Origin: Thelephora terrestris
Taxonomy: Eukaryota; Basidiomycota; Agaricomycetes; Thelephorales; Thelephoraceae
DNA length: 64,000 nucleotides
Assembly: GCA_015956445.1 (NCBI GenBank)
Contig: WIUZ02000015.1
Span: 708,001-772,000, forward strand
Direction of reading: 5' to 3'
The number at the start of each line of letters is the position of its first letter. Within the stretch, counting starts at the first letter, position 1. A program made the position numbers and the translations under genes. A model generated the notes under the pieces. The model ran no database searches, was not told where the DNA came from, and saw only the letters and a program-made list of their open reading frames with translations. Shown here one piece after another: positions 39,051-58,039 of the stretch.

Positions 39051-39675
39051 TAGGATAGTTCGGTTATATTATCCTTCTTGTATCCGTTGATTGCTTTATG
39101 ATATTTCTGAATTTGGCAACAATAGTCTTAAGATAGGTTTAGAATATGTATAGAATAAAGTATGCGAAGGATACATTGATTGTTGTGTACTTATCCTAAA
39201 TTTGCTTCCAATAATCCTAGAATAAGGCTAGAATATATTCAAAAAAAAGCGGCATTAATCATTCTACATTGTTTCTGAATTTGACTATGATAATATCAGG
39301 ATACGTTTAGAATATATCCAAGATGACTTGTACCGATGATCTGAAAGAAAATTCTGAATTTTCTTTGCATGACTCTTTTGTGAAATTTTTCGTAGATTCA
39401 GAATGAATTCTGAAACAATATCTTTGCAGAGGGAAAATCCTAGAAGTATTCTGAATATTCTGGGGGATAATCAAAAGACTTACAAAGAATAAGATTAGGA
39501 TCCTCGAGCGCTGTTTATCCTGAGCAAATTCTACAATAACATTCAAGATGTGCATAGGTTAAGATGCAGGCAAATTATTTTTATCAGATTTTGAATAGAA
39601 TAACGAGTTATCCGTGCATAAAATTGTGGGATTATTCTGAATAGTTCTCAAAATAATCCCCAAAAACTTATCCTA
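39051..39675. mobile_element. AT-rich segment with short terminal inverted repeats (possible MITE)
   Basis: About 625 bp of sharply AT-rich sequence in a GC-balanced region. It starts TAGGATAG and ends TTATCCTA, giving a 7-bp exact, longer imperfect inverted repeat. Inside, ATTCTGAAT, TAGAATATAT and TCCTAGAA motifs recur many times. It abuts exactly the point where the copia element 2 reading frame is lost. No clear target duplication was found, so it may be a fragment. Confidence 0.4.
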
Positions 39676-41110
39676 CCCTGGACCCAGTGCATAATCGTTG
39701 GCGGGGTGGGTGGTGCATCCTCAGGGCCGGAATCAGAGCTAGAGCTGGGTGTAGGCGATCTCGGTGGCTCCGAACTGGGCGCTCTAGATTGCACCGGCGT
39801 CTGCGGCCGTGGTGCTGGCTCAATAGCACGTTCCTTGCCTTTTGAGGAAGGCTTGGGGGTAGGTTTGGGACGCGCTGAGGGTGCTGCGTCATCTTCCTCT
39901 TGTCCTCCTGGAAGGGGACACTGGCAGTCACCGTCTTTGTGACAGTGATGACTGGGTAGGGGTGGCGCAGTAGATTGCAGCCGTGTGTTTCGCCGCACAC
40001 TGGCAGTTGGGCACTTTGGAAAGTGCAACTCATCGAAGGTGGCCTGAGCAGCGGAGAAAATGATGTTGTTAGGTCCGCGCATAAAGATCCATCCTTTTCC
40101 TCCCAGGTGGGTACCCAGGTAGGTCATCAATTCTGATCGGGGCGCGAGTTTGTTTATCCGTACTTCTTCCGGGATGAAGACATAGGCTCCGCAGCCAAAG
40201 ACCCGAAGATGATCAATTGAAGGCTTACTTCCATTCAATAGTTGGAATGGAGTCTGCCAATTTAGGCGACGGTTCGGCGTTCGATTGTAAACGTGAGTTG
40301 CGTGGTCAAGGGCGAATTCCCACCAAGACTGAGGGAGGTAAGCCTGTAATCTCATGGATTCTGCCTTATCCATCAATGTTCGAATGATCCTTTCCGCGCG
40401 ACCGTTTTGTTGGTGTGTATGCGGAATAGATTGGAGGATCTCAATCCCTTTTTCCTTGAGCATCGTCGTAAATGTTAGGGACGTGTACTCCCCCCCGGCA
40501 TCGGACATCCATCGACGTACTCTCTTCTGGTACTTGGTTTCAACCATAGCCAGGAAGTGTCTGGTAGCCATAAGTGCAGCGTCCTTAGTGCGCAAATTCA
40601 TGGTCCAGGCGTGTGAGGTATAGTCGTCATAGAAGACGATTGAGTACTTGTACTTGTGATAGGATTCAATGGGGAAGGTCTTTAGATCCGAATGGATCAG
40701 CTCGAAAGGGGCGCTTGCTCTGGTGTTGGATGGGGGAAAGGTCTTATTTGTCATCTTTCCTTGCGCACATCCAGTGCAGAGGTGCTCTTTTGGGATTTCG
40801 ACATGAGGAAAATCCTTGACATGTTTCCCAGCCTTTTGGATCACTTCTTTTGAGGGGTGAGCCAGTCGGCGGTGCATGATTTCAAAATCAGCACTATAAA
40901 TGGTCTCAATTTTGGCAGCAGTAAGTTGCGCCCCGAGGAGAGTTCTGATGATGTAAATGCTATCATCCTCGGTTCGAGGGTGGAAGGTAAGAAACTCGGT
41001 TTCTTCTTCGTAGAGTGAGATTTCACGAGCACTCCCCCTCGAGAAGAGTCCGCTTTTGAGGAACTGACCAAGGGACAGCAGCCCCATGGGAGATGTTTGG
41101 GACATGATAG
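39676..41110 (-). pseudogene. copia element 2 integrase region, truncated
   Basis: Continues the gag-protease frame after a one-base shift. The run of four C at 41082-41085 (GGGG on the coding strand) has one base too many; with three the reading would pass smoothly from the protease end (VYHVPNISH) into LLSLGQFLKSG. It contains GAG-pre-integrase (HRRLAHP, CTGCAQGK), the integrase core with all three acidic residues in context (HSDLKTF, SDAGGEY, NGRAERIIRT) and a Pro/Ser-rich linker. The frame stops where reverse transcriptase should begin. Confidence 0.85.
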
Positions 41111-42630
41111 ACAGGACTTAGTCGAACGGCCTTTTCGTTTATGTAGAGGATCACTGTTCCTTTACCAATAATCGTCGTGAAGCTGGTCGCTGTTCTCAAA
41201 GGAATGGACTCAATAGCCTCGTACTCCACGAAATCGTTTATGTCAAAAGTAAAGTGCCGGGATGCTCCAGAATCGAGCATCCACACAGCCTCAGTTTCAC
41301 TCGGGGCAGACAAGGTAAAACAAATATATTTGGAAGCTACTACTGAAGACCTAGACTTATCTTCAGGTGCTGTGGAGTCGTTAGTTTTGTTACTCAACAC
41401 TAAATTTGTTTCATACCTTCCACCAAGGCCAGACGGACCGGCAACCGACGCAGGGGAGACAACATCCATCTCATCATCCGACCACCCCAGGCTTACTTCA
41501 TCCTCGCCCGGCGGGGTACGCGCCTTTTTGCGGGGGCGAGGATCGATTGTCTGCTCATAAGAGCGCTCCAGCCTTTTGAGGGTCTCAATCGAAGGCTTCA
41601 CGCTTATGCGTGCTGCAAGGTCCCTAGCCTCCTGTACGGAGGGATAGAAGGAAAGGGTCCCTGTGCCTTGACGATGGACGGGGGGATGGCGTACGGGGAA
41701 AGCCGCCATGGAGGCAAAGCCATAATCCGAGACCGAGATGTTGGAGCTGGAGGGAACCAGAGGTTGTGGAGGGGGAGGTGGCATTTGAGACTCGTCGGTT
41801 TGCTGAGCCTGTTGCTGGAATCTTCCTCGACCTCCTCTTTGTCCTCGACGGTTTCGTCCTCGGCCTTGGCCCTGGGGCTGGCTCCCGTCGTGCTGCTGCT
41901 GTTGCTGCTGGAAATTTGGGTTCCCAGGGGCGCGCTGTACGTTGGACAACTTTTGTGCTTGTTGTCCGGAGCGACGGGAGCTAGACTTCTGCTCCCAGGC
42001 CAGTTTGACCATTTTCCTCAGCTCATCGATATTGACTTTACCGATATCGTCGGCCTGACAGAGGATCTGGGCAAGGTAATCGTAGGCAGGGGGCATCCGG
42101 GAGAGTATCATCATGGCTTTGATGAAATCTGGGACTGCTGCATTGGCTTCAGCAAGTCGACCAAAATGGGCCATGATTTTATCTATTGCCGGGATGGGGT
42201 CCGCATTTCCGGGGATCTGGACGTCCAGAGCGCTTTTGACCTCCGAGTAGATCCCCATTACGCCGGGTTTCCCGTATTCCGCATCGATTGCCTGGTACAA
42301 GGCCCAATCGTCCTCTTCGGACTTGTGTTTTGCCTGGATGTCAGGGCTTAGCCTCAGGAATATATTTCCTAGGGCTTTGGAGTTGTTCTCCTCCCACGCT
42401 TCGAGCGCGTCTTCGTCAACGTCTTCGCCGCCCTCCTGCGCCGGAATTTCTTCAGCATCATCGGTGGCAGGGACAGCTGCTACATATGGTCGTACCGTTT
42501 TGGTGGGCTTTCCCTTCTTCATTAGTCTCCACTGTCCTTGTGCCATCAAGAAACTTCTGACGGCAGGAGCCCATCGCTGATAGTTGGGGCCTTCGAGGAC
42601 GGGGACGAGAGAGGTAAGCTGAGACGACAT
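41023..42630 (-). CDS. copia element 2 gag-protease
   Basis: ATG at 42628-42630. The gag domain (residues 1 to about 225) begins LVPVLEGPNYQRWAPAVRSF, a typical copia gag start. A Gln/Arg/Gly-rich stretch follows where a zinc knuckle would be, but no CCHC motif is present. The protease active site is WMLDSGASRHFTF, about residue 450. The last 30 residues are out of frame because of the base insertion at 41082-41085. Confidence 0.85.
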   Translation of the reverse strand: MSSQLTSLVPVLEGPNYQRWAPAVRSFLMAQGQWRLMKKGKPTKTVRPYVAAVPATDDAEEIPAQEGGEDVDEDALEAWEENNSKALGNIFLRLSPDIQAKHKSEEDDWALYQAIDAEYGKPGVMGIYSEVKSALDVQIPGNADPIPAIDKIMAHFGRLAEANAAVPDFIKAMMILSRMPPAYDYLAQILCQADDIGKVNIDELRKMVKLAWEQKSSSRRSGQQAQKLSNVQRAPGNPNFQQQQQQHDGSQPQGQGRGRNRRGQRGGRGRFQQQAQQTDESQMPPPPPQPLVPSSSNISVSDYGFASMAAFPVRHPPVHRQGTGTLSFYPSVQEARDLAARISVKPSIETLKRLERSYEQTIDPRPRKKARTPPGEDEVSLGWSDDEMDVVSPASVAGPSGLGGRYETNLVLSNKTNDSTAPEDKSRSSVVASKYICFTLSAPSETEAVWMLDSGASRHFTFDINDFVEYEAIESIPLRTATSFTTIIGKGTVILYINEKAVRLSPVYHVPNISHGAAVPWSVPQKRTLLEGECS

Positions 42631-43020
42631 GTTTCTTTAGTTCTGGGGGGTGGAAGTGCCTGCGCCCAAAATAAGAGTCATCAGTTAATGAACGCTTCTA
42701 TGCCAAATGCAATGAAAGAGGGAAGAATTAGCCTTTCCCTTTTAAGGATTACTTTAGTGAGAGGTTTATTGCATGTTGCCTCAGTCCACACCGTCGGCAG
42801 ATGTTAATCGACTACCCTCCCCTTATGGGGTCTACGAATGTGTGTTGTGCTCAGCTTGGCCAATCACTGTTTCATCCCTTTTGGGGTTTTGACTTTTTGT
42901 TCTAAGTCCCCTTCCTGCGCAGTGGATAGCGCAGTGGCAGCCACAGGGGGCGCACTAAGGCAAGATTAGAGCCTTGTTCACAGCGCAGCCATAGAGGCGC
43001 AGCTTGGAACACAGGGCGTA

Positions 43021-43384: not shown

Positions 43385-43581
43385 CAACAAAGGGTATCGC
43401 GGAAACTGAATGCACCCTTCGCCTAGCCCAGGTGCAAGATGGCCTGGTGGACTTGAGGCGTCTCAGGCGGACCCTCCGAAGCCTGAGAATGTATTTTAGG
43501 TCTAACGTGGTCGGGCAAGGTCAGAAGGTTCAAACGAAGTCAAGGTCTGTCGAATCTGGGGTCCACGTTCGCATAAACCGA
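43385..43581 (+). pseudogene. KDZ transposase gene, upstream fragment
   Basis: The frame reading through GIAETECTLRLAQVQ, DLRRLRRTLRSLRMYF, NVVGQGQKVQTKSRS and VHVRINR matches the C-terminal third of KDZ transposases. It is cut by the gypsy element after codon CGA (43579-43581). The coding continues in frame at 58044 once one copy of the CCGA duplication is removed. Upstream sequence is lost or scrambled near the copia element 2 LTR, and a frame change is likely around 43380. Confidence 0.8.
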
Positions 43582-44585
43582 TGAACTGCTACTATCCGGG
43601 TGGAGTCGGGACACAACCAGAATAGCAGAAGTGGGGGTGAGGGGTCACCGGTTGTGCAGAGGTCGGGAAGGGGAGAGAAGCTAGACAGAGGAGAGGGAAC
43701 CACGGTAGGTCGCGACGTTGTCGGGACGAGAAGGGAGAACTCCGTACTAGCAAACTCCTGCTAGACGATGACGATGGGCTAAGGGGCTAGTGGGCGATGG
43801 GCTAGTAGGCTAGGGGTCTATTGGAACTATGGGGCTAGTGGAATCGATGTCAGAGCGAGGAGCTGGAGGTTTTCGATGATCAGGTCGTTCAAGCAGAAGG
43901 GAGAAGAGGTGTGAAGAGGCCCAGGGGTTTCTTGCTCGTTCAACTAGCTAGTACAGGGTATTTATAGGTAAAGACAGTGTGATCTACGCGAAAGAGATGG
44001 GAAAAGTAGCGAACAAATGGAGAAACGGTGGGAGAATAAGAACAGGTAGATAGAAGGGGATAAACGAGAGTCCGATGCAGGGTAGGGAGACAAACGGTTC
44101 ATCGGGAGGCCGGAACGAGGCTGGGACAGGTCTTACCGAGAGGATGGAGCGATCGTGAGAAACAGGACCGAAAGGGGAAGTCTACGGGTTCGAGATCAAA
44201 AGATCGTAACCGGGCGGGAGAGCGGGAGCAGTCGAAGATGATTGGCGAGCGAGAGGGAACGAGTCGACACGTGTATAGACTGAAGGGAACCGGACCGAGG
44301 GAGGGGACACGTCATCTCGGCGAGATAAGGGATCGGGAGACATCGGCCGATCGCAACATCACGTGCCGTTCGGGGAGGACGGCCACGGAGGCAGAAACAG
44401 CGTGCGATGACGCGCGTCGAAGGGATTGCGGGAACGGTTCGATGATCGGGACGTCAAGTGGGCGTGACCCTCCTGTGACCGATCGAGGGGTCGTCGGCTC
44501 GCGTAGTCAGTAGCTAGCGGGGTAGGGAGGTAGGGACTGGGGACTAGCACTAGATTCAAAGGTCGCGCGAATAGACAGCGGGTCA
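43582..44585 (-). repeat. 3' LTR of the gypsy element
   Basis: 1004 bp, 99.5% identical to 57036-58039. TATA-like TATAAATA (minus strand) at 43959-43966. Differences from the other LTR at 43615, 44427, 44440, 44484 and 44558 are all transitions within TCG/CGA. Confidence 0.97.
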
Positions 44586-44601
44586 TCTCCTCGAGACTTT
44601 T
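44586..44601 (-). promoter_or_regulatory. polypurine tract region of the gypsy element
   Basis: The minus strand reads AAAAGTCTCGAGGAGA directly before the 3' LTR. The same 16 bases occur once more inside the element at 48290-48305. On the plus strand it lies 137 bp upstream of antisense gene A. Confidence 0.6.
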
Positions 44602-44737
44602 AAAATTCAACCACCCTTGGTTGCGTGAGGTCGCCATGAGGCACACGTGAGGCGTCCGAATCGGGAAGGCCGCGCGGAAGCAAAACGACGAGATCGCGGT
44701 TTCGCCAGCTCATCACTTCTCTTTTCTGGTCCTCATC

Positions 44738-47700
44738 ATGTCTTCCTCTTCTAAGTGGACTCCTCCTGCTGCTGCCAGCGACCCGATTATCCTGGCCGCT
44801 ATGATACAGAGCGCCAAGGCGGTGAAGATCCCGGACGACGAGAAGCATCCCGATTGGGCTCGCCCCACGATCAAGGCCTTGGTGTCGGCTCAGGGACGTC
44901 CGGAAGCGTTTGAGCCCGTCTGGGCGACGGTCCTGCCGTTTTGGCGGCTCGAGGGGTTGGAGGAAAGGCTGGAGGAGGATAAGGAGTTGCGGGACCCTTG
45001 GGCGATGCATGCGTTGGCTTGGCTGGTGAGTCGAGTCGCGACGTTTCGATGTGGCGGGAGGGAGGGACTAAATCGTCGAGTTTGTAGGCTCGTCATCGGG
45101 ACGTGTGCCGTAGTTTTGGGCTCCCGCCTCTGCAGTTGATCGTCGACTGGGCAGACGCGGCAGAGTCCATTGGTTGGTTAACTCCGGGCTCGACCCCTTT
45201 TGGTGAGGATGCAGAGGAGGCTCCCGCACCCGTGATTAGTCGTCAATCGACGCTTCGACCGGTCGGGAGTGCTGGGGGGGCTACTACGCCGGCTATGAGT
45301 CGTCAGCCGTCTATCCAGGCGGTCAGGAGCACGGTGGGCGATCTGCCGCCTCCCACTAGTCGCGAGCCCTCCATTCAGCCAACTCCACAGGTGTCCGAGC
45401 GAGACGAGGACTTTGAGATGGAGGATACGCCCAGAAGGAGCGCTGGGGGTGGTCGGAACACGACGGGGGGTAAAAGTGCACTCATCCCATACGTTGCCGT
45501 CCCTCCTCGTCCCCAGGCTACCAGAAGGGATGTTTCGGCCACGGAGTCGAACGTCGGGTCGAAGCGGGATCTCCCCAGCTCGCCGAGTAAGGAGGAGTCC
45601 ACCTCAAAACGTTCGCGGACGACGGGTACCACCGGGAAGGGGAAGGGCGTTCAACGTGATCACGTCCCGGCCTTTCCAGCCATCGACCTCTCCGGCGAGA
45701 CATATGAGGAGGAGGAGCAGCTGAATACGGTGAAGTTTCCGGGTGCGCGCAAATACGTGAGTCTTTTAAACCTTTCGCGCTGTATTCGGGAGGTCTCATA
45801 TTTCTTCCAGACGTGTGATCGGTGCGACTCGTCCTCGTCGAAGGTGGTGAAGGATGCGTGTCGTCCAACCTGGTGCCTCGCGCTCAAGGAGGAGCGTCCG
45901 ACCTTCATCTGCGCAGCCTGTAGGAAGGACAAGAAGGGTTGCTCCTTCAAATGGATGACTTTCGGGATCACTGGTTGGCCCACGGTTACTCGCACGCCCG
46001 CGGGAGATCGTCGTCGCAGGAAGGAGGCCGCGGACCGTCGCAAGACGGAGGTTCCTACGAACGAGCTTGCCGACGACGGTGGGAAAGTCCCGAAACCGAA
46101 GAGAGCCCCTCGCGTGAGGAAGGCTGCGACCTCTGCGGCTTCTGAGCCCTCCCCCTCCGTTTCTACCCGCTCCAAGACTAAGGCTGCCACACACTGGGGG
46201 CAGGGGTTGGTTTACTGAGTCAGTAAACTGTGAGTAAATCACAAGTAAATGGAAAAAGAACCTAGCAAAATACTTGCCTGGCAAGCGCAAAGCAAATTCA
46301 CAATTTACTAAGCCAATTTACCTGCAATTTACTGGGTTCAGTAGGCGCTCAGTATGTTTACAGTTTACTGGGTCATGTGACCACAATTTCCCCATTAGGT
46401 AAACCTCGGAAAAATTCACAATTTACTGAATAAATTTACCTGCAATTTACTGAGCCACTTGCCCAATCAGTATTTTTTTAATTTTCTGAGTGGTTTGATC
46501 ACGGTTTACTGGACTCAGTAAACTGGAAGAAAACCCAAACTGGTTTACTGACGACGTCCCTGATTGGTCAATTTGAAAAATAACCGAAAATTTACCTGGA
46601 CGTGTCATTGTCAGTAAACTGCAAGTTTTCTTTCAGTAAATTGGAAATACACGTCAGGTAAACTGGGAAAACACGTGACGGTTTGATTGTGGTTTACTGG
46701 ACCCAGTAAATCAGAAAAAAACCTAACCAGTTTACTGATGATGTACCTGATTGGCTAATTTGAAAAAAACTCGAAAATTTACCAGGACATGTCTTTATCA
46801 GTAAACTGCAAGTTTTCTTTCAGTAAATCACAAGTACACGTAAAGTAAACCAGAAAACACGTGTAAACTGTAAGTAAATTCAAAGTTTACATGTTTTCTG
46901 GTTTACTTTACGTGTACTTGTGATTTACTGAAAGAAAACTTGCAGTTTACTGATAAAGACATGTCCTGGTAAATTTTCGAGTTTTTTTCAAATTAGCCAA
47001 TCAGGTACATCATCAGTAAACTGGTTAGGTTTTTTTCTGATTTACTGGGTCCAGTAAACCACAATCAAACCGTCACGTGTTTTCCCAGTTTACCTGACGT
47101 GTATTTCCAATTTACTGAAAGAAAACTTGCAGTTTACTGACAATGACACGTCCAGGTAAATTTTCGGTTATTTTTCAAATTGACCAATCAGGGACGTCGT
47201 CAGTAAACCAGTTTGGGTTTTCTTCCAGTTTACTGAGTCCAGTAAACCGTGATCAAACCACTCAGAAAATTAAAAAAATACTGATTGGGCAAGTGGCTCA
47301 GTAAATTGCAGGTAAATTTATTCAGTAAATTGTGAATTTTTCCGAGGTTTACCTAATGGGGAAATTGTGGTCACATGACCCAGTAAACTGTAAACATACT
47401 GAGCGCCTACTGAACCCAGTAAATTGCAGGTAAATTGGCTCAGTAAATTGTGAATTTGCTTTGCGCTTGCCAGGCAAGTATTTTGCTAGGTTCTTTTTCC
47501 ATTTACTTGTGATTTACTCACAGTTTACTGACTCAGTAAACCAACCCCTGCCCCCAGTGACAGCAAGTTCGAATGTTGCGCTTCCCACAGTCGCGATGGC
47601 TGGTCTGTCTGTCGGGGGTCCCTCTTCAGGACTTCACAGCTGGGAGGTCGATCTCCGTGAGTTCGAGCAGGAGTGGGGCCCGTCGACGGATTCCCCGGTT

Positions 47701-48048
47701 GCTGTGGAGCAACTTCGCGCGGCTCTTCGTTCCCAGCTTGCCAAGGAGCGCAACGAGGTGGACGAGATTGCTGATCTCGTCGCGAGTCGTCGGTACATTG
47801 CGAAGAGGATCCTGGCTAGGATGAACGAGGAGATCAATCGCCGTGGTGGGGAGGAGATCTGGGACTCCTCTGACTTTGCGTGTTCGGGAGAGGAAGGGGG
47901 CGACGGTGATGTGTCTGTGGGGGCTGTGAGTGACGACGAGGTGTTTTCGGATGGTGGGGCTGCGGTGAGGGATGTGGGAGAGGAGCTTCGGGATGTTGAC
48001 GACGTTGAGGACTCGGGTATGGTTGCGGAGGGGTCGCGAAGGGTCTGA
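44738..48048 (+). CDS. gypsy antisense gene A, Cys-rich protein, split by a palindrome
   Basis: A plus-strand gene inside a minus-strand gypsy element. Exons 44738-45025, 45088-45756 and 45811-46191 join in frame through 62- and 54-bp introns. The last exon resumes at 47563 after a 1,368-bp insert plus its ACA duplication and ends at 48048, predicting about 607 aa without the insert. The N-terminus (HPDWARPTIKALVSAQGRPE, WAMHALAWL) is helical. The middle is Ser/Pro-rich. A Cys cluster with spacing C-x2-C-x11-C-x4-C-x11-C-x2-C-x6-C (TCDRC, CRPTWC, CAACRKDKKGC) probably binds zinc; its last half resembles a GAL4-type half-site. A basic RRRRKEAADRR region, a coiled-coil-like part and an acidic tail follow. 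Function unknown; a DNA- or RNA-binding regulator is a guess. The insert introduces stops, so this copy is probably inactive unless the insert is spliced. Confidence 0.75.
46192..47559. mobile_element. 1,368-bp near-perfect palindromic element (palindrome 1)
   Basis: Two arms of about 675 bp are inverted copies, with only one arm mismatch found by eye (TTACTAAGCC against TTACTGAGCC); the centre is near 46875 with a loop of about 14 bp. It starts CACTGGGGGCAGGGG and ends in the exact complement CCCCTGCCCCCAGTG. It is flanked by the 3-bp duplication ACA (46189-46191 and 47560-47562). Each arm contains two tandem subrepeats of about 188 bp (starting 46516 and 46704) and many CAGTAAACTG/TTTACTG motifs. 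No transposase is encoded. End sequence and 3-bp duplication fit a non-autonomous CACTA-like element. It splits gypsy antisense gene A. Confidence 0.92.
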
Positions 48049-48289
48049 GGAATGGGGAGGAGGTCACGCGAACTTTTCAGCCATCATCATCATGTACTAC
48101 TAGTTTCTTGGCCTGTTTCTTTGCTGAATTCTCGTGTTTTCTTGGTCCGTAGCGTGTGGAGTGTGGTGAGACTCGTGGAATCGAGTTGGGTAAGGCGTGA
48201 GACGAGTTCTGCAAGGTGGGTACCTCCTCTGCGTCCTTCCAGCGGGTATGAACGATGATCGGGATGCGAGCGCGATATTGGGGACTGGC

Positions 48290-48305
48290 TCTCCTCGAGA
48301 CTTTT
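48290..48305. promoter_or_regulatory. internal copy of the polypurine-tract sequence
   Basis: TCTCCTCGAGACTTTT is identical to 44586-44601, and both are followed by a short inverted repeat (CAACCACCCTTGGTTG at the first site, TGACCGTCCTCGGTCA here). Each copy precedes one antisense gene (137 bp before gene A, 266 bp before gene B), so it may be a shared promoter element, or a second plus-strand priming site for reverse transcription. Confidence 0.5.
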
Positions 48306-48570
48306 GAACACTGACCGTCCTCGGTCACAACAACGACGGGGTGAAATGCTGAAACGCCTGGAAATGGCGGGATGGTCGGCCAGCATTGAATCGGGAGCCC
48401 ACCCGGCTCAGAGGCACGATAACACGGGCCGGACGGGATGATCGGGACGGTGCCGGCATCTTCCGAATCACGTGGGACACCGTACGGTCCGCGAGGACGG
48501 GGGAAAACGTCAGGGAGGGGGATCGAGTGAAAAAAAAATTTTGAAGTCCACCACCACCAGCACGACCGCA

Positions 48571-49881
48571 ATGCCTCTCATCGGGAATCACTATCTCACC
48601 GACGGCGACAATCCTGTGTGGATAAACAACCTTGAAGCTCGCGATCCCCCCACTGATCGTCCAGGGGTCGGCTTTCTCGACATCACTCTTGCAGATATCG
48701 TGGAACGCGTTCGGAGCGAGCGTGGGGATCGCGATGCCTTGGAAAGGGCCACGAGCTCAGATGCCCTCTTCGGATTCGCTATCAGGGCTATTGAGGACGA
48801 TCGAGGTCGCCCAGGGCGTCTGGGGGAGGACAGGGTTTGGAGGCGCCTCCTAGAGATGGGTCTCGCTGCTGATGGGATGTCGGGAGACGTTCGTGAAAGC
48901 ATCGCGACACGACAAGCCGTTCGTTATACCGCTGTAATCGCGAACGAGCTCATGAGGCGTCAGGAGGGACTCGAAAACAGGGTATGTCGCCGGGAGTGGT
49001 CGCGTCCGAGCATAGTGCTAACTCTTGAATGGTAGATTGAGGAAGTCCGTCTTCGCAATGAATGGTTGAGGATCCGCGTGGGAGTGATGGACCAGGCTAT
49101 GGACGAAATGGATCGGCACTACACCGCAGAGAGCGAGGCCGGGAGTCACTATGTGAGTCCCCGCTGTCCCGCGCAGGGTCGTGACGCTGACTGGAGCACA
49201 GGTCAGGGGTCTGAACGGCAGGATCACGTGGCTGGAGCAATCGCTCGCGGACTTCGTCGAGGCGTCTCTCATGCGTCGGGAGTACTATGGGGAAGTTGGG
49301 GTCCGTCGCGAGGAAGTCACCGCTACCGCGGAGGAGCCGGTAGCCGTTGGTGGGGTGGAAGATCCGCCTGTGGTTACGGAGTTCCACGCTCAGGCGACGG
49401 ACGAGGACTTGGATATTGTTCTTGCGCACGGGGAAGATCGCGAGGAGGCTCCGGTGCCGCTCGAGCGCGCCGAAACCGCTGATACCACGGGGGGTGTTGA
49501 CCATGTGAGTTCATCAACTTTGTCGCGACGTCCACTGGTTGACCTGGGGAATCGTAGGTACCAACGCCAGGTGCGACGGTCGTCGGGGCTAACACCATCC
49601 CGCAAGAGGGTCCACCGCCTTCCTATACACGCCACCGCAACTACGGGCGACTCTCTCCTGCGGAATCAGACGTGGCCGCTCGTGTACGCATGCTGCAGCA
49701 CGCTGTCGCCTACATGCTCCGTGCTCGTGAGATGTTCGCGAGATCCACGGGCAGATATGCGGGATATGAAGATGACCTTGACCCCACGGAGGACGCCATG
49801 ATGAACGCGGTTGGGGAGACCTCGCGACGCATTCGGGCTGAGTTTGGAGAGGGTCGCGACCGCAGAGGTGACGGGGCATAG
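48571..49881 (+). CDS. gypsy antisense gene B, helical protein of unknown function (384 aa)
   Basis: Four exons, 48571-48981, 49036-49152, 49202-49504 and 49558-49881, join in frame through 54-, 49- and 53-bp GT-AG introns. The first ATG gives MPLIGNHYLTDGDNPVW. The protein has no recognisable domain: an N-terminal charged region (LADIVERVRSERGDRD), a helical, probably coiled-coil middle across the exon junctions (RLRNEWLRIRVGVMDQAMDE; ITWLEQSLADFVEASLMRR), an acidic linker and a helical C-terminus. It ends 218 bp from the stop of pol, so the two genes converge tail to tail. Together with gene A it forms an accessory block carried by the element. Keeping frame across three introns implies recent selection. 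Confidence 0.75.
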
Positions 49882-50099
49882 CCCAAGGTAAGAGTGAACT
49901 AGCTGGTCATTGATGCGCAACTGCAAAGACAAAGGGGTTGTAAAGATGATGAAAGAAGAATAGCGGGCGAAGGAAACGTGGGTGTCTAGAAGGTAGATCG
50001 AAAGTGAGACAGCATTAGAATCTTAGAAGGGGGCGGAAAAAGTGAATAGAGAGGTGCATAGCTATAGTCCGGAATAAATACGAGACAGGTTGGTCTGTC

Positions 50100-53000
50100 C
50101 TAGAACGAAGGGGAGGGAACCTCGCGATAAGATCCAACAGCGGGGTCCAAGGAATCGAAGAAGTGGACATCTTCAGGGTCCTCGCTGGTGGAGTCCTCGT
50201 CGTCGGGAAGAGTCGCGAAGCTTGGGTCGCGAGTCTCCGTACGAGCAAGGTAGGGAATCAGACGAAACCCGGCTACCCTGAGCTGAGACTGGGCGCCGTC
50301 GAGTTCAGCGACGATGTAAGAGGGGCCAGCCTTCTTGCGAATGACGACATAGGGGCCATTGTACCGGGGCTTGGTCTTGCGGTTCAGGGACTCTTCGATG
50401 CGGGAATTCCGAACGAGGACCAGGGATCCGGGCTTGAAATCGAAGTCTACAATCTGTGAACCATGGCGCTTCTCAAACCGTTCTAGGTTCTTGATGCGGG
50501 AAGCGGTAACTGTCTCCTGCATCTTTTCGATATCTTCCTCACGCTTCGCCAGCTGACGAGCCCGGATCGCGATGAGTTCCTCGGTAGAGATGCCAAAGTC
50601 TTGGGCAGGGACGAGGTAAGTGGCTTCGAGAATGTCAAAGGGGAGGATGGGGTGGACACCGTGGACCATGTAGTAAGGGGAGAACCCAGTCGCCTTCCGC
50701 ACAGTGACACGCTCGGCCCAGAAGACCTGCGGGAGAACCTCGCGCCACTTGGACTCGTTTCCATGACAGGTTTTCATGACAGCTTCACGGACATCAAAGT
50801 GCTTCGACTCGACAATCCCATTGGCTCGGGAGTTGTAGCCAGAGATGCGGATGTGTCGTATACCGTATCGCGATGCGAGGATGTCGAGGGCTGCGATATA
50901 GGAGGAACCGTTGTCGGTGACAATCTCGGCGATGCCACCCCAACGACACAGGAGGTCCTGGAAGATGAAGTCGGCGATGACCTTGGCAGACTCGGAGGTA
51001 GTTGCCCGAGCTTCGGGGTAAGATGTAAGCGCATCGCGAGCATGGATGACGTATCGGTAGCTTCCAGTCCTGGGCATAAGAAAGGTATCGATATGGGCTT
51101 TCCAAAACAAGCCGGGAACGGTCGGGACGGTTGGCGGGATGTAGAAATATTCGGTTTGGCGCAGCTGACACTCGTGGCATGTCTTGACGTACCATCGGAC
51201 GTTCTCACTGAGGCAGGGCCACCAGAAACGCAGAAGGAGGTTGGCTGTCGTCGCGAAGGCTCCCTTGTGGCCGAGGTTGTCGTGGGCAAACCGAATGAGG
51301 CGGAGGCGATCTGAAGGAGGAGGAACGAGCTGTGGGCTACCCTTGCGATTCTTCCGGAACAGCTTGTTGCCAACGAGGAAGTAGTCTGTGGCTTGGCGGA
51401 TGAACTGCCGGTAGTCGTGGTCAGAGAGGTCTGGAGGGCGCTCCAAGTCGGACAGGAACTTCTGTATCACGACCAGCCGTTCTTCACGACGGAGGCCTTT
51501 GGGGGACTGGGGGATCGCGACATCAGTCTCAGAATCCGGTGAGGAGGATCGCGACGGAGCGGCAGAGTCGTCGGGAGGTTCTGGAGAGGGTCGAGGGGAA
51601 GGAGAGGAGGCATGCAGAGCTGGTTCGGGTTCAATGGCAAATAATATAGAAGGTGCTGGGTCTAGGGGGGATCGAGGTGTGTTGACTTCAAGGAAGAATC
51701 CTGCGCCGAGGTCAATCCACTCTTCCAGTTCGTCCGGATCGTCGGGAGGCGGATCCTCAGGGGCGCGAGGACGGCGGGAGAGACCGTCAGCTCCGGTGTG
51801 CTTGTCAGCGGGGACGTGGACGAGTTCGAAGTCAAAGAGTAGGATGGCGGATATCCATCGGTTCACGGCGTCGTTGGGATGGAGCGTAGGGTTATTGAGC
51901 ATCCCCTTGATAAACTTGGCATCCATTTCCACAGTGAGTTTCTTCACGCCGATGGTGTAAATCTGCGTCTGCTTGAGTGCGCGAAACAGCCCGAAGAGCT
52001 CGAGCTTGGCCTGAGAGTATCGCGACTCGCGATCGTTGAACGTGATGGACCCGAATCGACTGGGGTAGCGTTTTCCGTCTTCACCGACCTGAAGGAGAAT
52101 GAAACCAACACCGTTCATGCAGGAGTCGACGGCTAGGATGACTGGGCGTTGCGACTCGTAGTCGATAGGGCGTAGAGCTGGTGAGTTTACGATCGCGGCC
52201 TTGAGGTTCTCGATAGCTGCCAACTGCGGGGGTCCGATTTCGAAGGGTTCGTCTTTCCGTGTTAGCTGGATGAGGGGCCTTGCGACGAGAGTGTAGTTCT
52301 TGATGAAGATTCGAAGGACTCCACAGGTTCCCAGAAAAGCTCGAACCTCTGAAACATTTGTCGGGACTGGCCAGTCCTGGATGGCCTGGATTCGCGAAGG
52401 ATCCGCGATACGACCTTCGTAAGTACAGATGTGTCCAAGGATGTCGGCCTGAGGTACTCCGATGAAGGCCTTCTTCCCGCTAAACGTAGCCCCGTAGGAC
52501 TTGACGCGCTGGATGATCCGGTGGACTGCTTGGAAGTGCTCCCAGACGAATCGTCGTATGCCTGGGTTTTTGGGGATAGTCTCATACGTTCCGTCGGGAA
52601 GCTCGTATCGCGACTTTGGGCCTTTGATGGGGACGTCGTCGGCGAAAGGCTGGGTCCAGTGTGGAATCTCGGGTCGAAGGATGTGGGATACGTCGCCCTG
52701 TAACACGGCTGGGGAGTTCGTCCAACCCATCGGTAGAACTGTGAGTCGGAACGCGCCGAGGGGAGTGTTGAACGTGGTCATGTCGCGAGAGTCGGGATGA
52801 AGCTGACGCTGGTCGAAGGAAACGTATAGGTCGAGCGTGGTGTAGATGGAGCGACCAGCGAAGTCTTCGGCAACCACATCGGTGTAGGGAGGCATAGCGG
52901 CGTTCTTGATCGTAACGGCGTTGAGAGGCTCCAAGGAATGAACCAGACGTAATGACTTCCCATCCTTCTTGTAGACACAGAACCATCTACTGTTGTAGGA

Positions 53001-54212
53001 GGAGGACGAGGGTTCGTAGACACCGGACTGCCACTTGTTCTCGATGATCTGAGTAACCTCAGAGAGGATCCCGCGAGGGATGGGGCCTTGTCTGAGTACC
53101 CAGGGCGTGTGCGCGATGTGCGGGATCTCGATGGGGGCGAAGTACTTGGGATCAAATGTCCCTCTCTCGTCGTCAGTCCATGCGAATGCCGTGTGATGGG
53201 TGCTAACGATCCACTCCGCGAGCTTCACTTCTTCTGGTAGCAGAAGTCCTTTGCCAAGCGCCATTTGCTTCCGGCGTTCGGGAGTGAAGCGGGGGACGGG
53301 GGCGTATTCGGGATGGTGCGTAGGCAAGGGGGGCATGTCGGCAAGGGGGTCGGGATGGTCGTGCCGAATGATCCGAAAGTTCTCTGGCAGGGTGGTGGCG
53401 ACGGGTCGAGTCTTGTTCGCTACTTTCTTGTACAGGAACGTGGATCCACCGAAGGTTTCGCTAGCGAGCGGGATCTGGGAGTAGAGCTCCGATAACCACA
53501 TGCTGGCTGCTCGTGCGGGAGTAAGAGGGTCGAGAGGGGGAGATGGTAACTCTTCGCGAAGGGCTGCAAACTCTGTCGAAAGGTCGCGACGGGCGGGAGC
53601 GTTACCCATCGCGAGGAAGAGATGTTCTAGGCGTTCTGACGAAGTTCCTGCCACTTCGAGAGGTGGGTAACCGTCCTGGGTGCCTGCGTTGTTTTGGGGC
53701 GGTCCTTCCGTCACACTCGATCTGAGAGCTCTGTAGACCTCTAATGCCAGGTGGCGGGTGAGAGCTGGTGTCGATGAGGTGGTCGCGACGTCGGGAGGAT
53801 CGGGGATATCGAGAGTGTAGCGATCCGGTGGGGTCTCAGGATGGCCATCTATAGAATCGTATCCTATGAAGAAAGAGGAGAAAGGGGTGGGGGCAGCATA
53901 GTAGGATGATATGGGGAAAGGAGCAGAGGAGAGAAAAGGAGAAAGGACGGAGGAAATCGAGACAAGAGGAGGTGGGAGAGGAGACATAGGTGAAACTGAC
54001 GCAAGTTCTGGTAGAGGGGACCGGGACAGGGAGGTATCATAGGGTATCCGATGTTTTGCGGCCTGCAGCTTGGCGTGCACTGCAGACACTGGGAGTCGGT
54101 TTGGTCGGGACGCGGGAGTAGGTTCAGACGGCTCCACGAAGATGTGGGGCTCTTTGCGCGAGAGCGGGGGAGGTTGGGGCTCTGTCGCGACCGTAGTGCC
54201 GTCTGCTAATGA
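50100..54212 (-). CDS. gypsy pol (RT, RNase H, integrase), -1 frame to gag
   Basis: Open from the slippery site at 54212 to the stop at 50100 (1,371 codons); no ATG lies near its start, so it is expected as a gag-pol fusion. After a variable 200-residue region come reverse transcriptase (TTLDLYVSFDQR, PMGWTNSP, active site PFADD at about residue 524), RNase H (ILAVDSCMNGVG, RYSQAKLELFGL) and integrase. The integrase has an HHCC zinc domain (about 976-1016: FAHDNLGHKG, CHECQLRQ), a core with HIDTFL and IVTDNGSSY near 1096 plus a Glu in the GIVESKHFD context, and a C-terminal GPY/F motif (YNGPYVVIRKK). There is no chromodomain. FADD replaces the usual YxDD, and SF replaces the usual GY in the DLxxGYxQ block. 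The frame is uninterrupted. Confidence 0.95.
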   Translation of the reverse strand, partial: SLADGTTVATEPQPPPLSRKEPHIFVEPSEPTPASRPNRLPVSAVHAKLQAAKHRIPYDTSLSRSPLPELASVSPMSPLPPPLVSISSVLSPFLSSAPFPISSYYAAPTPFSSFFIGYDSIDGHPETPPDRYTLDIPDPPDVATTSSTPALTRHLALEVYRALRSSVTEGPPQNNAGTQDGYPPLEVAGTSSERLEHLFLAMGNAPARRDLSTEFAALREELPSPPLDPLTPARAASMWLSELYSQIPLASETFGGSTFLYKKVANKTRPVATTLPENFRIIRHDHPDPLADMPPLPTHHPEYAPVPRFTPERRKQMALGKGLLLPEEVKLAEWIVSTHHTAFAWTDDERGTFDPKYFAPIEIPHIAHTPWVLRQGPIPRGILSEVTQIIENKWQSGVYEPSSSSYNSRWFCVYKKDGKSLRLVHSLEPLNAVTIKNAAMPPYTDVVAEDFAGRSIYTTLDLYVSFDQRQLHPDSRDMTTFNTPLGAFRLTVLPMGWTNSPAVLQGDVSHILRPEIPHWTQPFADDVPIKGPKSRYELPDGTYETIPKNPGIRRFVWEHFQAVHRIIQRVKSYGATFSGKKAFIGVPQADILGHICTYEGRIADPSRIQAIQDWPVPTNVSEVRAFLGTCGVLRIFIKNYTLVARPLIQLTRKDEPFEIGPPQLAAIENLKAAIVNSPALRPIDYESQRPVILAVDSCMNGVGFILLQVGEDGKRYPSRFGSITFNDRESRYSQAKLELFGLFRALKQTQIYTIGVKKLTVEMDAKFIKGMLNNPTLHPNDAVNRWISAILLFDFELVHVPADKHTGADGLSRRPRAPEDPPPDDPDELEEWIDLGAGFFLEVNTPRSPLDPAPSILFAIEPEPALHASSPSPRPSPEPPDDSAAPSRSSSPDSETDVAIPQSPKGLRREERLVVIQKFLSDLERPPDLSDHDYRQFIRQATDYFLVGNKLFRKNRKGSPQLVPPPSDRLRLIRFAHDNLGHKGAFATTANLLLRFWWPCLSENVRWYVKTCHECQLRQTEYFYIPPTVPTVPGLFWKAHIDTFLMPRTGSYRYVIHARDALTSYPEARATTSESAKVIADFIFQDLLCRWGGIAEIVTDNGSSYIAALDILASRYGIRHIRISGYNSRANGIVESKHFDVREAVMKTCHGNESKWREVLPQVFWAERVTVRKATGFSPYYMVHGVHPILPFDILEATYLVPAQDFGISTEELIAIRARQLAKREEDIEKMQETVTASRIKNLERFEKRHGSQIVDFDFKPGSLVLVRNSRIEESLNRKTKPRYNGPYVVIRKKAGPSYIVAELDGAQSQLRVAGFRLIPYLARTETRDPSFATLPDDEDSTSEDPEDVHFFDSLDPAVGSYREVPSPSF

Positions 54213-56887
54213 AAATTTACCGCTTCCTCGGGATTTGGTCGAGGAGACTTGCGGATTCGGGGCTGCGTCGCGAACACGTAGAGCTTTCCCGTTTTCGGAT
54301 CTTTGACGCGGATCTCGTGCTTCCCTCCTGCGCTGCTGACTTCGGAGCAGCTGATGACATCGAAGAAAGGTCGTCCTAAAAGAACCTCGAAAGGCGCTTC
54401 TTCGACGACCTGGATCTGGAGATAGATAGTGATGGGACCGAGCTGAACTGGGTGGTCTTCAATAAGGCCTAGCGTCATGGTGGTGCTTGCGTTCGCCGAC
54501 TCCATTGGCATAGCGCGACTCGCGACGATGGGTGCTTGCAATCGGGACCAGACATCCTTTCTCATCACCACGACCTGAGCACCTCCGTCGAGAATGCACT
54601 CGGGTTCGACACCCGGCCCAAACGTCGGGTGGATGACGCGAAGGGGAAGGGAGGAGGCTGCTGCGGAGGATGAGGAGTCGTACTTCACGAGGTCCAAGAA
54701 GACTGAGGGGGGTTCTGCATCGAAACATCCAGCTAGGTAAGCATCCACTTCATCGACTTCTACCGTGTTGGCCGAGATCTTCTTGCTGGTGACAATCTCC
54801 CTGACGTGTTTTCGAAGGTCGGGAGCGACGGCCAGAAGTTCGCGAGCGCTGAGGTTGACCTTGGAGTCGAGCACACGATGGACTATGTCGCTTGTCTTCA
54901 CGTTGTGTTCGACTGGGGCCTGGAAGCGATACTTGGAGTCGTCGGGAGGTGGTCTAGGTGGATAGGAGACTGGTCGCATCGGTCCTTGGGGGCGCTGTGT
55001 CTGGCGATCTCCCGCTCGAGCTCCAGGCTTTCCGGAGGTGTTGGCGGGGTTCGTCTGGGTCTGGGTAGGAGCAGGAGTGGGCTTGGACGGTCCCGACTCG
55101 CGACTGGCTGGGGTAGGGCCCGTAGGGGCAGGTGGTAATCGTCCATCCCTTCGGGGTGGGCCCGTCCTTCTCGCGATCTCGACACCGTCAAACCTGACTT
55201 TCTTGGGGCCAGTCTGCAGGGCGTAGATCTGGGCGTTGCGAATGGAGTCGAGCTGGGCTTGCATCAGTTCGACTTGTTCTAGTGTCTCGTCGTCGTACTT
55301 GGAGAGGGGGTTAGGAGCGTAGCGGTTCTCGACGGGAGTGTGTGGTATGCTGGTAGTCGCGTAGTCCTCTTGGTCGGGATCGCATTCCTCCTCGAAGAGG
55401 TCGTACTGTTCGTCGGGATGGGCGTAATACTCTTCGGCAGGGGGGTCTATGTCTATGGTGAACACACACTCGTCTGGGCCTTCTAAGAAGTTGGTTGCAA
55501 AGGCGTCGCGACCTTGTCCTTCGTCGAGGCCCTCTGATGTCCAGTAGTTGTCGATACGTTCGCGAAGGTTCTTGCCAGGGATGTTGCGTGGAGGGTAGCG
55601 GCCATCGGGCAAGGATAGCTTCCCGTAGCCGTTCTTGATGACTTTCCCTTGTACGAGGTAGTCCGCTGCGATGGGGCAGTCGCGAACGAAGTGGTCATGG
55701 GCGCTACAGAACACGCAGTTCTGGGTGTACTGCTCTGGGTTTAGGGTGTTCCACCGGGGGACGTTTTGAAATACTCCTCCCGGAGTAGTCTGGGAAGTAG
55801 CGGGACGAGGGAGGCGTGGTGGAGGGGCAGAAGGAGGGGGCCCACGGCGAGGCTGTACGTTCGCGGTGAAGACCCGAGTCAGGTTTGACATTGCCTGGAT
55901 GAGCTCGCTGACGCTCCCCTGCTCTGCGGGCTCCGTCTTCGGGATGACGGCTCGAGAGTCGGGGTTGTCGTCGGGAGCGCGTGCGTTAAGGACGAACAAC
56001 GCAGCCTCGTGGACATCAGAGAACTGGTAACCGTCGTCGGGAAGGACGTCAGGCTTCTTGATCGACAGTCGATGCAGGATTCGTGCGCGGATAGGCTGGG
56101 GGAATCCCCTGAGATAGGCGGCGTCACGCTCCCGAGCGGTGTAGCGTCCCTTCGCAATGAGGTACGCGGAATAGGTAAGGAAGGACCGGTGGTAGTCGCC
56201 GAGGTCTTCGCGACTCATGTCCCGGTACCCGCGAGTGCGTTCCAGGAGGGTATCCAGGTCTCGAGTGGTCCAGCGGCGATCCGCTTGGAGGTGGGAGTAC
56301 AGATGTCTAACTTCGATTTTGAACTGAGCCCAAGTGGCGGGAGTGTGAGCGAGGACGTCCGGGTGCAAGCAGGGAACGTGCTCCCAGGATTCAGCTGCGC
56401 GACCGGCGTAACGCTGAGCCCAGTCAATCATCTGTGCGTCGTCTAGACCTGCGCGCTTGGCTACCTCCTCGAGCTCGTCAAAGAAGGTCTTGAAGCCTTG
56501 CTCAGTATCGGAGGCAAACCGGGGAGCCTCGCGACTGTGCGTCAGGGGCATGTTGGCCGTCATTGCTGGATAAGATACGGGTGGGCGGGTGGGAAAAGTT
56601 GGTGTCGTTATCGGGAGGGCCTGCGCGAGTCGCGACGGGGAGTCTGGGGGAGTGGGCGATCGCGACGGCGGAACGGTGCCTGGCAAGTCGGTGGGTGAAG
56701 ATAGTGGGGTACGGAAGAAGGTCTCGTCTTGTTCGGGATGCGGGAGAGGGTTGTTCGATGAGGAAGCGATCTGCCGGGCTACGATGGCGGAAACGACGTT
56801 GTCGAGTAGAGAGAGAGTTTGGCGAGTGTCGAGAATAGCCTGTCGGGCTTCCCGAACGTCTTGGTTAATCTCGGCTGGGGCTTGCAA
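54206..56887 (-). CDS. gypsy gag-protease
   Basis: 893 codons ending at TAG 54206-54208. It contains a retrotransposon-gag-like helical region (about 110-290: FKTFFDELEEVAKRAGL, QRYAGRAAESWEHV, YRDMSREDLGDYHRSF), one CCHC knuckle (CVFCSAHDHFVRDC, about residue 391) and a C-terminal aspartic protease (ECILDGGAQVVVM near 766; LLGRPFFDVI). The active-site triplet reads DGG instead of DSG/DTG. No ATG precedes the first 110 residues: the frame is open back to a TAG near 56985, and 56887 is a TTG. The start is therefore unresolved (non-AUG, spliced leader, or the internal ATG of MTANMPLTHS). Confidence 0.9.
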   Translation of the reverse strand: MQAPAEINQDVREARQAILDTRQTLSLLDNVVSAIVARQIASSSNNPLPHPEQDETFFRTPLSSPTDLPGTVPPSRSPTPPDSPSRLAQALPITTPTFPTRPPVSYPAMTANMPLTHSREAPRFASDTEQGFKTFFDELEEVAKRAGLDDAQMIDWAQRYAGRAAESWEHVPCLHPDVLAHTPATWAQFKIEVRHLYSHLQADRRWTTRDLDTLLERTRGYRDMSREDLGDYHRSFLTYSAYLIAKGRYTARERDAAYLRGFPQPIRARILHRLSIKKPDVLPDDGYQFSDVHEAALFVLNARAPDDNPDSRAVIPKTEPAEQGSVSELIQAMSNLTRVFTANVQPRRGPPPSAPPPRLPRPATSQTTPGGVFQNVPRWNTLNPEQYTQNCVFCSAHDHFVRDCPIAADYLVQGKVIKNGYGKLSLPDGRYPPRNIPGKNLRERIDNYWTSEGLDEGQGRDAFATNFLEGPDECVFTIDIDPPAEEYYAHPDEQYDLFEEECDPDQEDYATTSIPHTPVENRYAPNPLSKYDDETLEQVELMQAQLDSIRNAQIYALQTGPKKVRFDGVEIARRTGPPRRDGRLPPAPTGPTPASRESGPSKPTPAPTQTQTNPANTSGKPGARAGDRQTQRPQGPMRPVSYPPRPPPDDSKYRFQAPVEHNVKTSDIVHRVLDSKVNLSARELLAVAPDLRKHVREIVTSKKISANTVEVDEVDAYLAGCFDAEPPSVFLDLVKYDSSSSAAASSLPLRVIHPTFGPGVEPECILDGGAQVVVMRKDVWSRLQAPIVASRAMPMESANASTTMTLGLIEDHPVQLGPITIYLQIQVVEEAPFEVLLGRPFFDVISCSEVSSAGGKHEIRVKDPKTGKLYVFATQPRIRKSPRPNPEEAVNFH
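54212..54218 (-). promoter_or_regulatory. -1 ribosomal frameshift heptamer A AAT TTT
   Basis: On the coding strand gag reads GTA AAT TTT CAT TAG. The heptamer A-AAT-TTT fits X XXY YYZ in the gag frame, one codon before the gag stop. Slipping back one base gives AAA TTT then TCA TTA GCA, which is exactly the open pol frame. This fixes the start of pol and explains its missing ATG. Confidence 0.8.
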
Positions 56888-57014
56888 AGCCAGGAGCCGA
56901 GCGCGAGATCGCGTCTGAGGGGGGGAGAAATCTAGCGGGATAACCTTCTGCGCACGACCTCGTCCGCGGGGTGGAATGGCTGATAGCTTCTAGCCAGAAG
57001 TGACCTCTGAACCG

Positions 57015-57032
57015 GTCTCGGCGTGGGTTCCA
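57015..57032 (-). promoter_or_regulatory. candidate primer-binding site of the gypsy element
   Basis: Three bases inside the 5' LTR the minus strand reads TGGAACCCACGCCGAGACCG. It starts with the TGG expected to pair with a tRNA 3' CCA end. I cannot assign the tRNA. Confidence 0.4.
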
Positions 57033-57035
57033 AAA

Positions 57036-58039
57036 TGAACTGCTACTATCCGGGTGGAGTCGGGACACGACCAGAATAGCAGAAGTGGGGGTGAGGGGTC
57101 ACCGGTTGTGCAGAGGTCGGGAAGGGGAGAGAAGCTAGACAGAGGAGAGGGAACCACGGTAGGTCGCGACGTTGTCGGGACGAGAAGGGAGAACTCCGTA
57201 CTAGCAAACTCCTGCTAGACGATGACGATGGGCTAAGGGGCTAGTGGGCGATGGGCTAGTAGGCTAGGGGTCTATTGGAACTATGGGGCTAGTGGAATCG
57301 ATGTCAGAGCGAGGAGCTGGAGGTTTTCGATGATCAGGTCGTTCAAGCAGAAGGGAGAAGAGGTGTGAAGAGGCCCAGGGGTTTCTTGCTCGTTCAACTA
57401 GCTAGTACAGGGTATTTATAGGTAAAGACAGTGTGATCTACGCGAAAGAGATGGGAAAAGTAGCGAACAAATGGAGAAACGGTGGGAGAATAAGAACAGG
57501 TAGATAGAAGGGGATAAACGAGAGTCCGATGCAGGGTAGGGAGACAAACGGTTCATCGGGAGGCCGGAACGAGGCTGGGACAGGTCTTACCGAGAGGATG
57601 GAGCGATCGTGAGAAACAGGACCGAAAGGGGAAGTCTACGGGTTCGAGATCAAAAGATCGTAACCGGGCGGGAGAGCGGGAGCAGTCGAAGATGATTGGC
57701 GAGCGAGAGGGAACGAGTCGACACGTGTATAGACTGAAGGGAACCGGACCGAGGGAGGGGACACGTCATCTCGGCGAGATAAGGGATCGGGAGACATCGG
57801 CCGATCGCAACATCACGTGCCGTTCGGGGAGGACGGCCACGGAGGCAGAAACAGCGTGCGATGACGCGCGTCGAAGGGATCGCGGGAACGGTTTGATGAT
57901 CGGGACGTCAAGTGGGCGTGACCCTCCTGTGACCGATTGAGGGGTCGTCGGCTCGCGTAGTCAGTAGCTAGCGGGGTAGGGAGGTAGGGACTGGGGACTA
58001 GCACTAGATTCGAAGGTCGCGCGAATAGACAGCGGGTCA
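57036..58039 (-). repeat. 5' LTR of the gypsy element
   Basis: 1004 bp. Promoter TATAAATA on the minus strand at 57413-57420. Differs from the 3' LTR at 57069, 57881, 57894, 57938 and 58012. Confidence 0.97.

Follow-up and report, generated by a model that had tools for sequence, protein, structure and literature searches.

Intron-bearing accessory genes under purifying selection lie antisense to gag-pol in a Ty3/gypsy element of Thelephora terrestris

Antisense accessory genes have long been known in plant and fungal gypsy retrotransposons, and their function and origin were described as unsettled (PMC7264820). Plant examples are the antisense open reading frames (aORFs) of maize Grande (gene23), rice RIRE2 and Silene Retand (TRP28) (PMC7264820, PMC11963269). 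In fungi, Boty-like gypsy elements of Botrytis cinerea carry the antisense gene brtn (cited in PMC7264820, PMC8365987, PMC4227169), and the antisense proteins of human T-cell leukemia virus (HTLV) come from spliced antisense RNA (PMC10186651). The authors of PMC7264820 urged that antisense and spliced transcripts be looked at. Here, we analyzed a stretch of 64,000 nucleotides from the basidiomycete Thelephora terrestris (assembly GCA_015956445.1, contig WIUZ02000015.1, positions 708,001 to 772,000, hereafter the window). It contains a Ty3/gypsy element of 14.5 kb (43582-58039, minus strand) with two plus-strand genes, A and B, in the interval between pol and the 3' long terminal repeat (LTR), antisense to gag-pol. 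A and B are element-encoded antisense intron-bearing accessory genes under purifying selection. Antisense accessory genes as such are already known (Grande, Retand, brtn, HTLV-1 HBZ); what is new, within the literature searched, is an intron-bearing, selected antisense cassette bounded by polypurine tract (PPT) motifs in a basidiomycete. Within that search, which most subscription journals lay outside, no title or abstract opening described a fungal LTR element with an antisense protein gene that has introns.

The gene brtn resembles A and B as an extra antisense gene between pol and the 3' LTR of a fungal gypsy element. It provides a fungal antisense precedent, contrary to the preliminary description of this DNA, which knew of no characterized fungal case. 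Boty elements, however, carry one such gene whereas the T. terrestris element carries two, and Boty pol was reported with a chromodomain (PMC4227169), whereas none was found in a Pfam search of the frames of the window element. The plant aORFs share the position, the orientation and the presence in most copies with A and B, and like A they are suspected to encode a DNA-binding or nuclear protein; the text covered of PMC11963269 made no mention of introns. They come from a different kingdom, and the TRP28 domain (PF04195) of Retand was matched by neither A nor B. The HTLV-1 HBZ and APH proteins are, like A and B, products of spliced antisense genes on the 3' LTR side, with the splicing of A and B being predicted, and HBZ and APH-2 are nuclear regulators (PMC10186651). 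HBZ is a basic leucine zipper protein of an infectious retrovirus with env, and A is a cysteine-cluster protein; the comparison served as a working analogy only.

Both genes lie inside the LTR-bounded element, which is flanked by a target-site duplication (TSD), on the strand opposite to gag-pol, as the preliminary description had placed them. The 5' part of gene A (44738-46191, plus strand) consists of three exons (exon 1, 44738-45025; exon 2, 45088-45756; exon 3, from 45811 to a hairpin), separated by intron 1 (45026-45087, 62 bp) and intron 2 (45757-45810, 54 bp). Its 3' part (47560-48048, plus strand) is cut off from the 5' part by that hairpin, a perfect inverted repeat of 1.37 kb (46192-47559, no strand assigned) with arms of 671 nt that are 100% identical and a TSD of ACA. 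Gene B (48571-49881, plus strand) encodes 384 amino acids and contains three introns (48982-49035, 54 bp; 49153-49201, 49 bp; 49505-49557, 53 bp). Read without splicing, A stays open for 133 codons and B for 154 before a stop appears, so that the full frames require splicing. The frame had been described as kept across all five introns, which was correct for B but not for A of the window copy, where the hairpin breaks the gene and the frame stops at a TGA (46216-46218). The hairpin, with the termini CACTGGGGGC..GCCCCCAGTG, was missing from the sibling copies L009, L010, L011 and L016, and at the empty site of L010, L011 and L016 the two flanks overlapped by 3 bp (ACA). We take the CACTGGGGGC ends and the 3-bp TSD to be reminiscent of CACTA-type elements. 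A relative of this hairpin (~95%) was inserted in the LTR of copy L015, and a second hairpin element in the window (60700-61924; arms of 589 nt, 99%) was distantly similar to the first in its inner part.

The T. terrestris genome (40.6 Mb, 60 contigs, labeled C1, C5 and so on) was searched for further copies. B DNA was found at 17 genomic places, of which 10, counting the window copy, were full length, and A DNA gave 17 rows. Thirteen stretches of the same pol lineage (lineage I, defined below) were fetched, and ten of them contained A and B in sufficient length for alignment; L013, L020 and L021, with A or B deleted or broken up, stayed out of the intron count. The five introns, of 49-62 bp as first described, had GT..AG borders in all ten aligned siblings (50/50), so the intron pattern was not due to chance. 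A was open in 8 of the 10 copies (L011 interrupted, L019 frameshifted) and B in 7 (L011 and L012 frameshifted, L019 cut). Four features of an antisense accessory gene were found: a position between pol and the 3' LTR, the opposite strand, presence in most copies and a conserved protein. In the public A protein BJ322DRAFT_1111610, intron 2 is kept as 18 additional residues; intron 2 of the type 1 A genes defined below is 54 bp long and in frame.

The A genes of lineage I fell into type 1 (window, L009, L010, L011 and L016), type 2 (L017, L019 and the broken L020/L021) and type 3 (L012, L014, L015 and L018). In the first part of A, the DNA identity to the window was 83-87% for type 2 and ~71% for type 3, and the proteins of the three types were about 60-80% identical; the LTR, B and pol of the type 2 and type 3 copies were mostly 90-99% identical to the window. 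The ratio of nonsynonymous to synonymous substitution rates (dN/dS) was calculated on chosen pairs (4 for A and 4 for B by one method, 7 for A and 6 for B by a second), excluding L011 and L019 for A and L011, L012 and L019 for B. For A it was 0.31 between types 1 and 3, 0.23 between types 1 and 2 and 0.36 between types 2 and 3 (dS 0.5-1.0; Fisher p 3.3e-23 or lower), and for B it was 0.17-0.21 across four pairs (Fisher p 6.6e-4 or lower). The second method gave 0.21-0.31 for A and 0.28-0.33 for B with the same pairs. A and B have thus been maintained as proteins over a long time, and the comparison between copies that the preliminary description had proposed thus revealed purifying selection on both genes. 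Sliding identity showed L017 to be a mosaic, which was type 1-like up to element position ~1500 and 90-96% type 3-like from ~3100, with a middle of the A region distinct from both types; such a pattern would be expected from recombination between co-packaged genomes.

The antisense orientation had been proposed as the route by which introns persist in a retroelement, and the borders agreed with it. On the genomic RNA the introns of A and B are carried as their reverse complements, CT..AC, which the spliceosome leaves in place; therefore, they outlast retrotransposition. Transcription of A and B would proceed from the side of the 3' LTR and run against gag-pol, and the resulting mRNA would be spliced. 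This suggests that an antisense position allows protein genes to be carried by a retroelement over long periods despite their ordinary spliceosomal introns.

Homologues of A were present in other pol lineages. Of 62 candidate places in the pol search, 40 were scored, and lineages I to IV were taken as bands of pol DNA identity (about 96-100%, 77%, 75-76% and 72-73%, respectively), with unfetched places assigned by identity alone. Five of the 7 places of lineage II (L022-L025 and L029), 3 of the 10 of lineage III and 1 of the 5 of lineage IV (L036 with L038) were fetched. All five lineage II copies contained A at the same place and on the same strand, with ~30-39% amino acid identity in the matched segments and exon borders at identical residues; the introns were read out in L023, L022 ends with its contig before the first border, and L025 contains an insertion. 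In lineage IV, three A exons matched the A-protein profile in order (E 7.5e-5, 4.7e-6 and 3.2e-9) and were the sole matches among 1075 six-frame pieces, which included three lineage III copies and one stretch of flank of the pol-less block described below. The assembled lineage IV A reached an E of 1.2e-21, against 0.17 for the best of 200 shuffles. Its overall identity to the other A proteins was 19-26%, and a single-sequence search gave E=0.004 with lineage I A and none at E<=0.01 with lineage II A. Neither tblastn nor the profile found A in the three fetched copies of lineage III, all of which had ~1.4 kb between the edge of the shared sequence and pol. Lineages III and IV were sisters in the pol tree (81% amino acid identity, support 1.000), which was read as unrooted because the frame used as an outgroup (13066-17610) proved to be copia. 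An A-like gene on C6 was accompanied by an antisense integrase remnant (two pieces, 41-47% amino acid identity, E ~1e-6). Altogether, 70 of 106 candidate A-like places were scored; the places on C8, C12, C24, C45 and C56, together with one on C15, lay outside the fetched set.

B, in contrast to A, was restricted to lineage I and remnants (33/33 candidates scored). A B-like match in lineage III (E=0.066) was taken as chance. A protein search against 5.8 billion sequences, which finds only relatives with shared exact words, returned no relative of B among 7997 scored candidates; A gave three matches and the five-protein A alignment also three, all from T. terrestris, and viral contigs searched with that alignment gave 27 pattern matches and no relative. 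No annotated B turned up in the protein search, and antisense genes of this kind are easily missed. Hence the basidiomycete homologues that the preliminary description had asked for were seen in T. terrestris only, by an exact-word search, but within this fungus A lay antisense beside pol in other lineages. The outcome named there as the opposing one, A and B existing only as single-copy host genes, was not what was found, since both are multi-copy and A occurs in lineages II and IV. Of the proposed element-encoded module of A and B, the encoding by the element held, whereas the pairing was not ancestral, with B confined to lineage I and remnants.

The PPT (TCTCCTCGAGACTTTT on the plus strand) adjoins the inner edge of the 3' LTR and is followed by the palindrome CAACCA-CCCT-TGGTTG (44608-44623; together 44586-44623), ~115 bp upstream of the ATG of A. 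An internal second PPT-like copy with the palindrome TGACCG-TCCT-CGGTCA (48312-48327; together 48290-48327, plus strand) lies between A and B. In all four lineages, the inner 3' LTR edge bore the motif TCTCCT(C/T)G(A/G)GACTT and, after it, a 6-N4-6 palindrome. A second copy of the motif was located between A and B in lineage I and between A and pol in lineages II and IV; the internal copy of lineage II kept CCG-N4-CGG, and that of lineage IV had no clear palindrome. In lineage III, two PPT motifs stood in tandem 56 bp apart in 3/3 fetched copies (L026, 7185 and 7241; L027, 7209 and 7265; L028, 7241 and 7297). The internal motif was conserved at 16-18/20 positions, falling to 7-12/20 in the flanking spacer (L016 vs L017), and in the stretch from A to the internal PPT, a search for remains of an LTR matched only the PPT motif and words of up to 12 bases. 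The palindrome arms paired in 48/48 cells of eight distinct motif rows, which were hand-picked and related, and three of the six pairs covaried by double changes; the observed score of pairing and covariation was reached by 0 of 500 shuffles. Such palindromes were not rare (the window element has 10, including 4 within the hairpin, against an expected 3.6), and the evidence for the candidate palindromes is carried by their fixed place and covariation. The plainest reading of the ancestral order would be pol - PPT' - A - PPT - LTR, where PPT' is the internal motif. A, framed as a cassette by two PPT-like motifs, would then predate the split of pol lineages I, II and IV. In lineage III, recombination between the two motifs most likely removed A, the tandem PPT motifs there being read as a putative deletion scar, and B seems to have been inserted later in lineage I between PPT' and pol, as its absence elsewhere suggests.

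The A proteins shared an N-terminal stretch (W.P, WRL and AW..RH) and the cysteine cluster C-x2-C..C-x-P-x-W..C-x2-C-x6-C-x-F. The preliminary description had counted seven cysteines, and six of them were invariant in five members whereas the seventh position was C, H, Y or R among the relatives. The canonical Zn2Cys6 order is C-x2-C-x6-C-xn-C-x2-C-x6-C, and lineage IV A read with an alternative intron 2 (GTGAGC donor, TAG acceptor) gave C-x2-C-x6-C-x15-C-x2-C-x6-C. When a profile of the cysteine region was compared with the PDB, AlcR (1f4s, 2alc) came first, though not significantly; AlcR, which we take to be a Zn2Cys6 regulator, has C-x2-C..C..C-x2-C-x6-C with a long C3-C4 linker, as A does. 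Nucleic-acid or metal binding by A, suggested before, is plausible. The env-like role also suggested before was unsupported, because both genes are antisense, not sense, to gag-pol and neither had a match in a Pfam search. A fold search with the A model returned 28 matches at E<=10 and none at E<=0.001, and a PDB sequence search returned no match for B and one for A at E=0.099, which was not taken as meaningful.

We lean toward an account in which A and B are real accessory genes, A is old, and A is likely a nuclear, zinc- and nucleic-acid-binding regulator of the element, and we hold this account as a whole with somewhat more confidence than doubt. A would have a helical domain at its N terminus together with a Zn2Cys6-like cluster; for B, a role as the helical partner of A is no more than a guess. 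Several observations weigh against this account. The C2-C3 spacing was 9-11 in five A members, and a spacing of 6 appeared in lineage IV solely with the alternative second intron. The AlcR match was not significant (E=0.12, best domain 0.82), and of the six cysteines only the last four aligned in register, with the first two shifted by three positions. No A member reached the Pfam Zn-cluster model, with weak matches to unrelated families only. The predicted structures were too poor to use, both for A (mean pLDDT, the predicted local distance difference test score, 48) and for B exon 1 (mean pLDDT 39), and no relative of B outside lineage I and remnants appeared in anything searched. In the nearly identical copies L016 and L010, dN/dS was ~1 (A) and 1.3 (B), from few changes and therefore uninformative. 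The second motif copy of lineage III and the internal copy of lineage IV lacked the TGACCG palindrome and were excluded from the pair count, and two of the five measures of the pair test (pairs with double change and further pair types) were within the shuffle range. Without a usable pol outgroup, the tree would formally also allow A to have been gained only after lineage III had split off. Finally, A-family genes also occurred in a block without pol, so an A gene does not have to work for a retrotransposon.

Zn2Cys6 proteins often bind CGG/CCG palindromes, so the palindromes beside the PPT would be the natural thing to test as targets of A. The chances are about even, however, that the palindrome serves reverse transcription as a hairpin in the genomic RNA and is no operator of A, with the internal copy as a second, central-like PPT. 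In favor of this, the palindrome stands 21-22 nt from the PPT start in four lineages and was retained in lineage III despite the lack of A. The hairpin reading also agrees with the A-like genes of the block (P1, P3 and P4) and of C6, which had no perfect 6-N4-6 palindrome within 600 bp upstream, and with block gene P2, which had one with different arms. On the other side, the symmetry of the palindrome exists at the DNA level too, A lies downstream of it and B downstream of its internal copy, and the internal copy of lineage II retained CCG-N4-CGG. A far-reaching version of the regulatory account is a circuit carried by the element itself, in which the antisense zinc-cluster protein A, encoded between PPT palindromes, would bind CCG-N4-CGG-like palindromes and set the expression of A and gag-pol; the cassette would be swapped in parts by recombination, be losable through its flanking repeats, as in lineage III, and be shared with the pol-less block. 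We regard this complete circuit as improbable.

That block bears on where A came from. On C1 from 2634202 (L034, L030 and L033), a repeated block of ~17 kb or more contained four A-like genes in mixed orientation, and whole or partial copies of it were found on C23, C16 and C8. No pol match at E<=0.01 was found within 29.7 kb. A is therefore a wider family, and it is conceivable, but rather doubtful, that A entered the gypsy element as the cargo of another mobile element, of which the block would be a living relative. For two of the block genes, prediction gave a complete gene whose two introns sit at the positions seen in A; one lacked the cysteine cluster, and the fourth gave no prediction. 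The left end of the block, ~95 bp, recurred at many loci as transposon ends do, so the block looks like a mobile element, but no transposase was recognized in the nine frames beside its A-like genes. The small A tree (8 proteins, a very long branch for IV, no outgroup) placed the genes of the block together with those of lineages II and IV; A may have moved from the block to gypsy or in reverse.

Much less probable is that the antisense RNA and not the protein matters, forming double-stranded RNA with the genomic RNA and tuning silencing. The antisense long non-coding RNAs of Ty3 elements in Blumeria hordei are likewise spliced but were reported as non-coding (PMC10648671), and a dual role was proposed for plant elements (PMC7264820); the purifying selection at the protein level in both A and B, and the frames open in most copies, spoke against it here. 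A one-off transduction of ordinary host genes, kept as passengers in a single element, can practically be set aside: the introns indicate DNA that was once like host genes, host-gene capture by retroelements is known (PMC7264820) and one of the unfetched A-like places could hold a stand-alone host A, but at least ten copies carried both genes (one with B cut short) under purifying selection, B genes turned up in lineage I and remnants only, and diverged A homologues lay antisense at the same place in pol lineages II and IV. With three A types, deeper homologues, a lineage of apparent loss and intact introns in one sequenced fungus, the splicing, binding and loss proposed in our preferred account are directly testable.

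The remainder of the element was that of a Ty3/gypsy retrotransposon, with LTRs, TSD, primer binding site (PBS), PPT and the domain order protease-reverse transcriptase-RNase H-integrase. The 3' LTR (43582-44585, minus strand), with TG..CA ends, and the 5' LTR (57036-58039, minus strand) are 1004 bp each and 99.5% identical (5 mismatches in 1005 aligned columns); the element is young. The TSD CCGA occupies 43578-43581 and 58040-58043, and a PBS-like start inside the 5' LTR edge was judged by position and TGG only. Two overlapping minus-strand frames encode gag with the aspartic protease (54206-56989, 927 amino acids) and reverse transcriptase, RNase H and integrase (50100-54458, 1452 amino acids). 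The former matched PF13352 above the cut-off and the protease models PF13975 and PF13650 slightly under it, and the latter matched PF00078, PF17917/PF17919, PF17921 and PF00665. An open stretch of 267 amino acids (58029-58832, plus strand) starts at the outer 5' LTR edge and has no Pfam match; it is possibly a gene hit by the insertion. The window also contains two copia-type stretches on the minus strand, the one at 13066-17610 being a single long frame and the other (39648-42636), ~0.9 kb from the gypsy insertion site, two frames. A further frame (26454-28040, plus strand) had a Plavaka match below its cut-off and a match to a tnp2-type transposase (PF02992).

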